Assembly (NCBI GenBank): GCA_030672365.1
Contig: DAOVGM010000025.1
Location: 1 to 40,427, forward strand
Origin: Methanomassiliicoccales archaeon
GTDB taxonomy: Archaea > Thermoplasmatota > Thermoplasmata > SG8-5 > JAGLSY01
Length of the DNA: 40,427 nt
Direction of reading: 5' to 3'
In this document: one piece after another, positions 8,889 to 34,953 of the stretch
How the letters are laid out: the number at the start of each line of letters is the position of its first letter
Numbering within the stretch: position 1 is the stretch's first letter
Made by a program: the position numbers and the translations under genes
The notes under the pieces: generated by a model
Told to the model about the DNA's origin: nothing
The model's database searches: none
The model's input: the letters and a program-made list of their open reading frames with translations, nothing else

Positions 8889-9425
8889 ATGACGGATTTG
8901 AGAGAAAGGGTCGAGGACGACAGAGGACTTATCAAAAAGATACAGTTGGCTATTCCCGGCTTCCGGGGATACAGGCAGAGGGAGGACCTGAGAATCGCGG
9001 ACCGCCTTTTGCGTGAGCAGCTGACAGACAGGCTCGGCTTTGCAGCCAAAAAGGCCGAGGAGTGCAGAAATCTCCTCGCCGAGGCAAAGGAGCTGGACAC
9101 CCTCGAGAAGGTCAGGAAACTGGTGAACGAGACCAACTCCGCAATGAACAGGATGAGGCATGCCGAGCAAGGGTACACAGGCGTCTCGCCAGATTATCGG
9201 ATTGAACAGAGCCAGCTGAACGTGATGTACGAGTGGGACCTGGCATTGCTGGACGACGTCCAGACAGTCAGAACCACACTGGACATCGTGGCGGGGGCGA
9301 TACCATCCGGCGACTTGGCCAGTGTCGACACCGGCATGAAAGCGGCATTGGACGCGCTCAACAATTTCAACGAATTATTCTCGAAGAGAAGAGAGGCCAT
9401 TGCGGGCCTGCTGGTAGAGGAATGA
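8889..9425 (+). CDS. Helical protein paired with SPFH gene, unknown function
   Basis: 178 aa, almost entirely helical and charged, without signal peptide or membrane span. Heptad-like stretches occur at about 45-80 (KKAEECRNLLAEAKELD) and 145-178 (ALDALNNFNELFSKRREAIAGLL), suggesting an oligomeric coiled-coil or helical bundle. GFRGYRQREDLRIADRLLR near the N-terminus is the most distinctive patch. The downstream SPFH/zinc-ribbon gene starts 16 bp later behind its own strong Shine-Dalgarno, so the two are very probably co-transcribed and functionally linked, perhaps as a partner of the SPFH assembly (inference). Confidence 0.75.
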   Translation: MTDLRERVEDDRGLIKKIQLAIPGFRGYRQREDLRIADRLLREQLTDRLGFAAKKAEECRNLLAEAKELDTLEKVRKLVNETNSAMNRMRHAEQGYTGVSPDYRIEQSQLNVMYEWDLALLDDVQTVRTTLDIVAGAIPSGDLASVDTGMKAALDALNNFNELFSKRREAIAGLLVEE

Positions 9426-9441
9426 AAGGAGGAGATTAATC

Positions 9442-10686
9442 ATGGCATTCGGAAGAGGCAAGAGCAAGAAAGGCGACGTGGCCAGGAACACATACACATG
9501 GCCACAGGAGTACAAAGGCGAGAACGTAATGTACAAGATACCGACGAACGTGTACTGGAACGATAATTTCGTGGTTTATGAAGATGAATACGCCGTCTTC
9601 TTCAGGGACGGCAAGGCGATGCACGTCTTCGACCAGCCGGGAAGGTTCGCGCTGACCACCCAGAACGTCCCGATCCTGAGGACGCTGGGACCGGCAGTCA
9701 CCGGCATCAAACAGCTCGGCGAGGTATACTACATCCAACGCAGGGAGTTCCGCGGAAAATTCGGAACACCGGAGCCGCTGACCTTCCGCGATGTGGACTT
9801 CGGGCTTGTCAGGTTGAGGATATTCGGCAACTTCTCGTACAAAGTCACAGACCCGATGCTTTTCATCACCGAATTCGTGGGAACTCACGGTTACAGTACT
9901 TCCAGCCAGGTCATCGAATGGCTGAAGTCGGAGCTCATCCAGACAGTCAACGACGCACTTGGAGAACTCAAGCGCGACAAGAACATGGCCATGGTCGAGA
10001 TGCCGGCCTATCTGCAAGAAATTGAACAACTCATACTCAGCAAGGTCGAGGACGAGATCACACGCTACGGACTCAAGATAATGAACATTGCCGGCTTGAC
10101 GATAACACCGCCGAAGGAAGTGCAGGACGCCATCGACCGCAGGGGTGCGATGGGAGCGCTCAACGTCGACTACTTGCAGTACCAGACCGGCAAGGCCATC
10201 GAGGGCGTCGGAGAAGGCGCGGCAAAGGGCGAAAGCGGCGGCGCAGCGGCATTCGCCGGCATAGGTGCTGGCCTGGGAGCTGGAATGGGCATGGGCGGAG
10301 CAATGACACAGGGCATGCAGGATACCAACCTGACCAAAGAGAAGGAAATAATGGTCATGTGTCCGCACTGCCAGGCACTCCTCGCGAAGGATGCAAAATT
10401 CTGCAAGGAATGCGGAAAGTCGGTCGGCGCTCCGGAGAAGGAGAACTGCCCGAAGTGCAATGCCGAGATAGCCAAGGATGCGAAGTTTTGCAGGGAATGC
10501 GGAGCCCCAACCGAAGTGAAGTGCCCGAAGTGCGGTGCGGAGATGGCTGCAGATGCCAAATTCTGTCGGGAGTGCGGCGAGTCATTGAGCGAGGAGCAAG
10601 AACCCGAACCGGCGGAGCTAACACACCCCACCGAGCCGGAGCAACCACCGCAGCCGGACCCGAGCCCACCGCCACCGCCGGAGTAA
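9442..10686 (+). CDS. SPFH/band-7 domain protein with three C-terminal zinc ribbons
   Basis: 414 aa. Residues about 25-240 match the YdjI-like ('virion core protein') SPFH family: ENVMYKIP...NDNFVVYEDEYAVFFRDGK and QLGEVYYIQRREFRGKFG...PLTFRDVDFG. A Gly/Ala-rich linker (about 243-290) follows. Then come three tandem CPxC...FCxECG zinc ribbons at 307-325, 336-354 and 361-379, and a Pro/Glu-rich tail. There is no N-terminal membrane helix, so it is probably a cytosolic or peripheral scaffold. AAAGGAGGAG precedes the ATG by 8 nt, a strong ribosome site. Close homologues in bacteria are often linked to membrane stress or TPM/toast-rack proteins; here the partner is the upstream helical protein. 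Confidence 0.88.
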   Translation: MAFGRGKSKKGDVARNTYTWPQEYKGENVMYKIPTNVYWNDNFVVYEDEYAVFFRDGKAMHVFDQPGRFALTTQNVPILRTLGPAVTGIKQLGEVYYIQRREFRGKFGTPEPLTFRDVDFGLVRLRIFGNFSYKVTDPMLFITEFVGTHGYSTSSQVIEWLKSELIQTVNDALGELKRDKNMAMVEMPAYLQEIEQLILSKVEDEITRYGLKIMNIAGLTITPPKEVQDAIDRRGAMGALNVDYLQYQTGKAIEGVGEGAAKGESGGAAAFAGIGAGLGAGMGMGGAMTQGMQDTNLTKEKEIMVMCPHCQALLAKDAKFCKECGKSVGAPEKENCPKCNAEIAKDAKFCRECGAPTEVKCPKCGAEMAADAKFCRECGESLSEEQEPEPAELTHPTEPEQPPQPDPSPPPPPE

Positions 10687-13685: not shown

Positions 13686-13801
13686 ACGAAGCAACCGAGA
13701 TTGTACAATTATACTACATGCACAAATTCGGTATATAAACGAAAAGCGGCATCGCGATTTTGAAAAGGCAACACAAAGCCTTGGACAAGGAGAGAGATAA
13801 A

Positions 13802-14284
13802 ATGTCGAATAATTTAACTCACGGAATTGCCGGCTCGGTGCTGATGGCCGCGGTGAATGCGGTATTTGGATTGCCCATTCTCGGCCTGAACATCTTTATT
13901 GCCGGAATACTGGCCATGTTGATCAACCTCGATAGGATCGGAGGGGCGAGCGGAAAGAGGAGCCCCATCGGCCACTCTGTTGCATCGGCTGCAGCCTTTG
14001 TCTATCTGGCTTACTGTGCAATGCACGTTGCTCAGATGTTTGGTTTGATGGGTCCGGAAACCGCCGGTGCCATATTGTTGGCCGTGGTCTGTGGATACTC
14101 AAGCCATCTGGCCTTGGATGCTGTTTCCGGCGAGGGCATTTACCTTCTTCCAACGTCACGGAAATCGAGCAAGTGTTGGAACAACTGGCTCAGGATCTCT
14201 ATGGGCGGGGTTTCGCGGATATCGGACAGCAAAGCGAACATGGCATTCGGCGCCGTTCTGGTTGTTCTTATTGCACTCGTGTGA
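13802..14284 (+). CDS. YdjM/DUF457-like membrane-bound metal-dependent hydrolase family protein
   Basis: 160 aa with four to five hydrophobic helices. Conserved patches match the YdjM (LexA-regulated inner-membrane) family: LTHGIAGSV near the start, NLDRI...RSPIGHS (about 40-57), and SSHLALDAVSGEGIYLLPTS (about 101-120), where the His/Asp residues may bind metal. The hydrolase label is the family name; activity is not demonstrated. The ATG at 13802 has AAGGAGAGAG 7 nt upstream, so the longer frame beginning at 13760 is unlikely. A TATA-like GTATATAAAC lies about 65 bp upstream. The structured RNA element begins 6 nt after its stop. Confidence 0.8.
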   Translation: MSNNLTHGIAGSVLMAAVNAVFGLPILGLNIFIAGILAMLINLDRIGGASGKRSPIGHSVASAAAFVYLAYCAMHVAQMFGLMGPETAGAILLAVVCGYSSHLALDAVSGEGIYLLPTSRKSSKCWNNWLRISMGGVSRISDSKANMAFGAVLVVLIALV

Positions 14285-14289
14285 TACCG

Positions 14290-14424
14290 CCGTATGCTCC
14301 ACCGATTGCATGCAATAACTCGAAGCCAGTATTTTGCTTCGAGAGGTGAGCATATGGCAGCTGAAAAGTGAACTTCCAGGTCATTTATGGCCCGGTAGTT
14401 TACTCCAAAATGCTTATCATGCTG
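14290..14424 (+). ncRNA. Structured RNA element, copy A (two-domain fold)
   Basis: Domain 1: CCGTATGCTC-C-ACC (14290-14303) pairs with GGTGAGCATATGG (14345-14357), enclosing P2 ATTG/CAAT (the 12-bp palindrome 14305-14316) and P3 CTCGAAGC/GCTTCGAG (14319-14326/14336-14343): a three-way junction. Domain 2: CAGCTGAAAAG (14358-14368) pairs imperfectly with CTTATCATGCTG (14413-14424), with an inner stem GTGAACT/AGTTTAC (14368-14374/14397-14403) and a T-T mismatch before CC/GG. A second copy at 34191-34314 on the minus strand keeps every helix despite substitutions. It lies 5 nt after a stop codon and 23 nt before the next ATG. It could be a 3'-UTR RNA, a 5' leader or a free RNA. Confidence 0.75.
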
Positions 14425-33980: not shown

Positions 33981-34058
33981 GTCAAATCCCCGCTAAATTG
34001 GATGTTAGTAAAACCAACAACATATATAAATGGTTTTGGGAGATACAAAAAAAAAGTA

Positions 34059-34165
34059 TGGGCCTACCCAGATTCGAACTGGGGACCTCCGCCATGTCAA
34101 GGCGACGTCATTTTTGGCACTGACGGACACCAACCCACCAATGAAACCAACTAGACCACAGGCCC
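34059..34165 (-). tRNA. tRNA-Val(GAC) with a 33-nt D-loop intron
   Basis: Acceptor stem GGGCCTG/TAGGCCC, discriminator A; anticodon arm TCGCC-TTGACAT-GGCGG (anticodon GAC); T-arm CCCAG-TTCGAAT-CTGGG. The D-arm is interrupted: GTCTAGTTGGT is separated from AATGAC by 33 nt (34145-34113). TCAT at the intron start pairs with ATGA in exon 2, and the following TGG pairs with CCA before an AAA bulge, giving a relaxed bulge-helix-bulge (H-B-h'). Splicing would give a normal 74-nt tRNA with the intron after nucleotide 20. The 3' trailer has a T-run on the minus strand. Confidence 0.85.
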
Positions 34166-34190: not shown

Positions 34191-34314
34191 CGTTGAAATA
34201 CTTTTGCATGTGAACTACCGACCCGAACCGGAAGTTTACATTTCAACGGTCACACACTCAACATCTCGAAGCTATCGGCTTCGAGTTATTGCACGCAATC
34301 GGTGGAGCATACGG
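34191..34314 (-). ncRNA. Structured RNA element, copy B
   Basis: The minus strand reads CCGTATGCTCCACCGATTGC, GTGCAATAACTCGAAGC, then GCTTCGAG, closely matching copy A at 14290. P1's 3' strand is GTTGAGTGTGTG (34262-34251) where copy A has GGTGAGCATATG: C to T and two A to G changes all keep pairing as G-T wobbles. P3 is CTCGAAGC/GCTTCGAG (34265-34272/34278-34285 on plus). Domain 2 is closed by CGTTGAAAT/ATTTCAACG (34248-34240/34199-34191), a perfect 9-bp stem where copy A has a different paired sequence. The inner stem is GTAAACT/AGTTCAC. It lies 9 nt after the GINS stop and 25 nt before tRNA-Val. Confidence 0.75.
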
Positions 34315-34323
34315 CAGCAGACC

Positions 34324-34953
34324 CTAACCTTCTATGACCTTCGCCGCGCCACGAGCAATCAGCACGTCGGCAAAGTTGATGGGCAGTGTTACCACATCCT
34401 GCTTTTTGAGGTTATAGACACGGTTCGTGCCGGTGAAAGAAGGAATGTCCTCTAGTATCTGGACGGTCGCAATCGGCACCTCCTCGCGTTCTGGCTCCGA
34501 AATTTCTTCTTCAGCAACCTCGGAACCGGGCGCCCTTTCTTCAACAGGCACGCTGGCCGCGATTTTTTCCGCGATATCATCAGTACCGCCGCCGCGGAAA
34601 TGCCTGAGGATGTCAACAAGAGAAGAATACAACTTTTTCTCGTTTTCTGTCAAGTACTTCGGCATCTCGCTGCCGGAGACGCCGGCAAGGGCGGCTAGTG
34701 AGATTTTTCTTTCCCTGTGGCAGTAAGTCTGGTCAAGCCTCTTTTGAACCTTCTTGATCTCATCCTGCAGCATCATGGCCTTGGCGCTGGAAACGCTTCC
34801 GTTCGTGTTCTCGTCGGAATACTCTTCCTTCAACCGGGCCAAATACTGGCTCGCGCGCCCGAAAAAATCGCCTTTGATGTGAGTCAGAGTCTTACTTCGT
34901 CTCTCGTTTCGATAAACTTCAGAAATCTCGGTAAAACCAATATCATCGACCAT
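34324..34953 (-). CDS. GINS complex subunit (Gins51 type)
   Basis: 209 aa. An N-terminal helical A-domain (about 1-110: EVYRNERRSKTLTHIKGDFFGRASQYLARLKEEY, CHRERKISLAAL) is followed by an acidic linker (about 120-160) and a C-terminal B-domain (about 162-209: VQILEDIPSFTGTNRVYNLKKQDVVTLPINFADVLIARGAAKVI). The A-then-B order identifies the Gins51 (Sld5/Psf1-like) class. GINS links MCM helicase and RecJ-like/GAN protein in the replisome. A TATA-like ATTATATACC is only about 15 bp before the ATG, so the exact promoter is uncertain. The RNA element starts 9 nt after its stop. Confidence 0.88.
   Translation of the reverse strand: MVDDIGFTEISEVYRNERRSKTLTHIKGDFFGRASQYLARLKEEYSDENTNGSVSSAKAMMLQDEIKKVQKRLDQTYCHRERKISLAALAGVSGSEMPKYLTENEKKLYSSLVDILRHFRGGGTDDIAEKIAASVPVEERAPGSEVAEEEISEPEREEVPIATVQILEDIPSFTGTNRVYNLKKQDVVTLPINFADVLIARGAAKVIEG

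Follow-up and report, generated by a model that had tools for sequence, protein, structure and literature searches.

A dispersed archaeal repeat with a covarying three-way junction, probably a PATE- or REP-like relative of IS200/IS605 transposons

Archaeal REP- and PATE-like repeats are usually described by their end hairpins only. In the omega/reRNAs of TnpB, a structured segment terminates where an IS200/IS605-type element has its right end. The PATEs of Haloquadratum walsbyi are transposase-free, have neither terminal inverted repeats nor a visible target duplication, carry IS605-type palindromes near both ends, and occur in tens to hundreds of copies with nested insertions (PMC3119063). 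Bacterial REPs and BIMEs, linked to the Y1 protein TnpA-REP (RAYT), are high-copy intergenic folded repeats; their units are simple hairpins of 21–65 nt with a GTAG/GGAG tag (PMC2817692, PMC6006769, PMC8266576). IS608 combines left and right hairpins with GL AAAG and CL TTAC (PMC5934647).

Here we describe a repeat family from a 1.26-Mb draft archaeal genome (83.5% complete), two copies of which lie in the window, the whole 40,427-nt stretch of DNA analyzed. Judged by its sequence, the family looks like a PATE/REP-like relative of IS200/IS605 transposons with an unusual conserved internal junction. It shares the features of PATEs listed above, but in most copies an order-wide covarying three-way junction lies between the end hairpins, many copies without the left end keep the fold, and the host is one Thermoplasmata-related order rather than a haloarchaeon. 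With REPs it has in common a high copy number, an intergenic position, a folded unit, and a link to Y1. Unlike them, its unit measures 120–215 nt and holds a three-way junction, the Y1 elements that share its ends are of the IS200 type, and the 5' GTAG/GGAG tag is replaced by a conserved 5' flank, GA(T/G)ACC, before the junction and its following hairpin. Compared with IS608, the two hairpins, a TTAC-type target, and (for the L143 group, see below) an AAAG guide by the foot of the left hairpin recur, whereas there is no transposase gene, the putative right cleavage site is TTTAC instead of TCAA, and the internal junction (D1) is additional. Covariation maintains this junction across the order, also in copies without transposon ends, and with many natural replicates at hand the choice between selfish DNA and a domesticated structure can be tested. 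A ready covariance model comes from the alignments as well, which would prevent such repeats from being annotated as lone ncRNA genes.

Anatomy and covariation of the fold

Both copies in the window are of a short type, consisting of D1 and a second hairpin, D2:

14281–14403, plus strand: copy A, a complete short-type element (D1 and D2, right end TTTAC); covariance model R1 114.4 bits, E 1e-24, alignment A1
14282–14284, plus strand: TGA stop of the upstream gene (13760–14284), within the left edge of the element (ORF table, sequence)
14289–14299, plus strand: P1 5' strand of copy A, GCCGTATGCTC, partner 14348–14358; 99.4% of cells paired in 30 own-genome copies
14305–14316, plus strand: P2 small hairpin of copy A, ATTGCATGCAAT, weakly conserved (72% of cells paired)
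14319–14343, plus strand: P3 hairpin of copy A, CTCGAAGC...GCTTCGAG, both-sided change in 6/9 pairs
14348–14358, plus strand: P1 3' strand of copy A, GAGCATATGGC, from pairing in the own-genome alignment
14368–14403, plus strand: D2 hairpin of copy A, GTGAACTTCCAG...CCGGTAGTTTAC, with a T.T mismatch; both-sided change in 10/11 pairs
34210–34323, minus strand: copy B, a short-type element with a degenerate P1; model R1 87.3 bits, 82 bits by DNA

Aligning 30 own-genome copies defined D1 as a three-way junction (P1 of 11 bp, a short P2, and P3 of 8–9 bp) and D2, downstream of D1 in each copy, as a hairpin of ~11 pairs with a T.T (U·U) mismatch in 29/30 copies. Long copies carry an extra left hairpin (D0) and a longer D2. 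The full-length layout is TTA(G/C) just outside D0, then a linker, D1, and a D2 that closes the element with TTTAC. P3 is genome-specific, with CTCGAAGCC in genome G000 and CGCAGAG/GCGGCG in G001/G002. In four G000 copies (C51, C85, C92, C39), the P1 3' strand is interrupted at a shared site by a common foreign insert (TAATCAATGGG...CCATTGATTA), and at seven loci (L169, L172, L181, L164, L176, L178, L277) various left modules are joined to one D1–D2 right module.

The initial annotation had reported a three-way junction followed by a second hairpin at 14290–14424, and the fold of copy A is confirmed (MFE −52.3 kcal/mol, z = −5.1, 0/200 shuffles as good). The family unit, however, spans 14281–14403, and the family-wide P1 is 11 pairs long instead of 13. 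The diverged copy on the opposite strand is also present, shifted from 34191–34314 to 34210–34323 (82 bits by DNA, 87 bits by model), directly 3' of the stop codon of a gene labelled Gins51-like from a weak Gins51_C Pfam match (34324–34953, minus strand). Copy B was said to keep every helix, yet P1 in this copy combines a C-A mismatch (GGC to GAC) with four G.U wobbles and is missing from the MFE fold, and the z-score of copy B reaches only −1.2; both P3 and D2 are preserved. The P1 changes between the two copies, described as compensatory, are one-sided, so copies A and B alone are no proof of compensation, which does appear in the larger alignments. The stem proposed to close the second domain (CAGCTGAAAAG/CTTATCATGCTG in copy A, CGTTGAAAT/ATTTCAACG in copy B) is built from sequence 3' of the element and is not a family feature: among 57 copies, the mean longest outer helix was 6.2 bp versus 5.6 in shuffles, and the 11 consecutive outer pairs of copy B are a single-locus exception.

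Both-sided change affected 22/35 pairs in the own-genome set (30 copies), in which 93% of cells were paired; no shuffle equalled this pairing, and slid registers all dropped to 30–41%. An order-wide set of 30 copies gave 32/35 pairs, with shuffles and slid registers nowhere close, and here P1, too, was rewritten (GCCGTATGCTC/GAGCATATGGC versus GCCATGCACC/GGTGCATGGC). The corresponding value for the genus of the metagenome-assembled genomes (MAGs) RS_9_71 and RS_8_37 was 24/35. Alignment A1 was made by sequence, whereas A2 and A4 were made by the covariance model and therefore lean towards it. Strong selection on the fold is strongly supported by these comparisons; it may act on RNA, as originally proposed, or on single-stranded DNA, and D1 may be kept as either. 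G-T cells outnumbered A-C cells (120 versus 52, a fixed wobble pair left out), which favours the plus strand as the folded one. No Rfam family exceeded its gathering threshold for copy A (best 14.6 bits, threshold 100), and a tRNA was the sole Rfam match in the window. Separately, positions 34056–34162 (minus strand) encode a tRNA for valine (anticodon GAC) whose D-arm region is enlarged by ~33 nt of inserted sequence, which appears to be a non-canonical intron; this tRNA is absent from both the ARAGORN and the Rfam output.

Relation to IS200/IS605 transposons

The ends of long copies match those of L143 and L142, IS200-type Y1 transposase elements in genomes G004 and G011 (Pfam Y1_Tnp). Identity is 91% over 35 nt in the left hairpin D0 and 94% over 33 nt, up to the element end, in the right hairpin (the right half of D2), which ends in GTTTAC in L143/L142 as in the long copies. 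Palindromes resembling those of IS200/IS605 thus lie near both ends of long copies and at the right end only of the short copies A and B. D2 of copy A is the counterpart of the IS200-type right end, as judged through the long-type copies from which the homology to L143/L142 was established. AAAG occurs just 5' of the foot of the left hairpin, beside TTA(G/C), in L143/L142 and in the copies of G004 and G006. Between their left end and the transposase, L143/L142 are also predicted to form a three-way junction, unrelated in sequence to D1.

Evidence of movement comes from several loci. One copy (L105, G002) interrupts a GNAT acetyltransferase gene; its flanks, when joined through one TTA(C/G), restore a reading frame of 164 aa in which a GNAT domain spans the junction, and the exact cut is ambiguous because TTA stands at both ends. 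We infer from this one case an empty site without target duplication. Between G004 and G006, the element was present in one species only at 3/3 doubly flanked loci, one of which (L247 versus L268) is a plain empty site while the remaining two hold other sequence too. Near-identical copies occupy unrelated loci within G006, several copies lie at contig ends, and composite elements occur at several loci.

Given the end match to Y1 elements, the GNAT interruption, and the insertions that differ between sister species, we consider it probable that these repeats are non-autonomous, palindrome-based mobile elements of a PATE/REP-like kind, with IS200/IS605 transposons as relatives. During replication, a Y1 transposase supplied in trans would cut out and insert the element in the form of a folded single strand, recognizing it by its end hairpins and by guide/target pairing, as for IS608. 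D1 would be an accessory structure, conserved as part of the right-end module, to which we assign it because it accompanies D2 even where the left end differs or is missing. The element carries no ORF. Weighing against this reading, no autonomous element carrying D1 was found, and Y1 genes, which occurred in 7/13 order genomes, were found neither in the 83.5% complete own draft genome nor in several copy-rich relatives. A second Y1 type (L140, L141, L144, L145, L148, L151; 1–2 matches per genome) has a locus alignable between G004 and G006 and another palindrome (GGTAATCGGCAATCT..AGATTACCGG) nearby in G005 and G006, a combination that looks like an archaeal RAYT/REP pair. As mobiliser of the present family, this second Y1 type (L140, L144, L148, and others) was rejected, since its loci carry a different palindrome and the element lies near L148 only.

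The structured segment of these copies reaches up to an IS200/IS605-type right end, and its position and size would fit an omega/reRNA, with D1 and the right end as scaffold and the flank as guide of a TnpB-like nuclease. However, the OrfB_IS605 domain was unmatched in the 13 order genomes searched and the zinc-ribbon family gave one marginal score above cut-off, although control genomes do give matches to both, and no recurrent ORF adjoins the copies. With no TnpB in these 13 genomes, the element is not an obvious guide RNA, and an orphan one seems very improbable.

Distribution and genomic position

A covariance model search, as the initial annotation had suggested for finding homologues, recovered 60 copies from the own genome (E<1e-7). 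Further copies were found in relatives from the order: 11 other genomes contained from 1 to >100 each, and four reached at least 107, 110, 56, and 31. What had been taken for a two-copy structured RNA family is thus a dispersed, transposon-related repeat with ~60 copies in the own genome, different in kind as well as number. The annotation had named a transposable repeat conserved at the DNA level only as its counter-case; the repeat is indeed transposon-related, but its conservation is not confined to the sequence level. At E 0.01, matches occurred in 12/13 order genomes and 0/28 other genomes of the class, and stricter filters applied to a 350-genome class sample left 11 positive genomes, all from this same order. 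Among other named genomes, the closest that carry the element are the 'Thermoplasmata archaeon' MAGs RS_9_71 and RS_8_37; unrelated bacteria gave single matches to the P1 pattern. Two pairs of contigs, G000 C32/C58 and G012 C44/C69, have the same sizes (19748 and 46715) and element matches at identical coordinates; the G000 and G012 bins are overlapping or misassigned.

Copies adjoin stop codons rather than start codons, their neighbours are unrelated genes, and the orientations of gene, element, and gene are mixed (−el− 17, +el− 13, +el+ 12, −el+ 10). In 20/33 cases the antisense gene downstream has its end within the element, for 7 of them exactly 4 nt in, the outcome expected if the element had inserted at TTAC (read as G TAA on the complementary strand). 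When ORFs close to 138 copies were clustered, no linked or element-borne protein family was seen at >11 loci. A conserved intergenic structure might suggest a riboswitch or attenuator that serves a regulon as its cis-regulatory leader, but mixed orientation, proximity to stop codons, and the lack of a common downstream gene family refute this reading, to which we attach next to no probability.

Two G000 copies (C21:718–835 and C11:23091–23208; L126, L129) lie between a tRNA 3' end and a repeat of the final ~11–12 nt of that tRNA (GGTTCCCTGCA / GGCTCCCTGCA). In G006, L288 holds at ~9380–9850 a tandem array of partial tRNA-end copies (GGACCAGTCGTAGTCGCAAAC...CGACTGGTCC) beside an intact tRNA.

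Copies without transposon ends

By a sequence test on 58 own-genome copies, the left end is absent from 44 and present in 14–15. TTAC is kept in 12/15 copies with a left end versus 11/43 plain copies without one. Although D2 diverges from the consensus at 37% of sites in the 24 copies with neither left end nor TTAC, 92% of its cells are paired, versus 53% expected under independent site change, and 77 double changes stand against 8 single breaks. Nearest sibling copies differ at 13–55% of unpaired sites; across the 58 copies, 85 broken pairs were counted versus ~446 expected under neutral decay since the nearest-sibling split, a test that uses a structure-guided alignment and assumes that intermediate copies were never lost. 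Such high pairing in diverged end-less copies means that the fold seems to be kept after insertion, which suggests selection in place. The same pattern could also arise from lost intermediates or from a mobile lineage recognized by shape alone.

Intact folds in copies without a left end, and often without TTAC, go beyond what end recognition alone explains and speak against a purely mobile interpretation. Since other PATEs consist of simple ends only (PMC3119063), D1 ought to be dispensable for mobility. Beyond the ends of a jumping gene, the fold probably matters in its own right. Within the mobile family that we favour, many left-end-less copies, A and B included, might be resident, with a fold kept for a local role at gene 3' ends, a weaker part of our proposal. 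A less probable alternative regards the short copies without a left end as elements domesticated at gene 3' ends, acting as functional structured RNA or as cruciform-forming DNA. A host protein could then recognize the three-way junction and hairpin in a transcript, for instance protecting or processing mRNA 3' ends, and the mobile copies would be the source or a derivative of the resident ones. Put more fully, and equally tentatively, the family may be an order-specific structured nucleic acid, probably RNA, whose three-way junction and U.U-mismatch hairpin derive from an IS200/IS605-type element and have been selected at dozens of gene 3' ends per genome after most copies lost their transposition ends. 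Domestication would account for the paired D2 of the 24 end-less copies and for the deficit of broken pairs; unrelated neighbour genes in all orientations, and the assumption behind the neutral-decay test, weigh against it. It could also draw on two pairs of copies in G000 and G001/G002 that agree in orientation and are flanked by the same orthologous genes. Even at these two co-located loci, however, the helices differ and match the genome-specific types, which does not support vertical inheritance between genera and points to spread within genomes.
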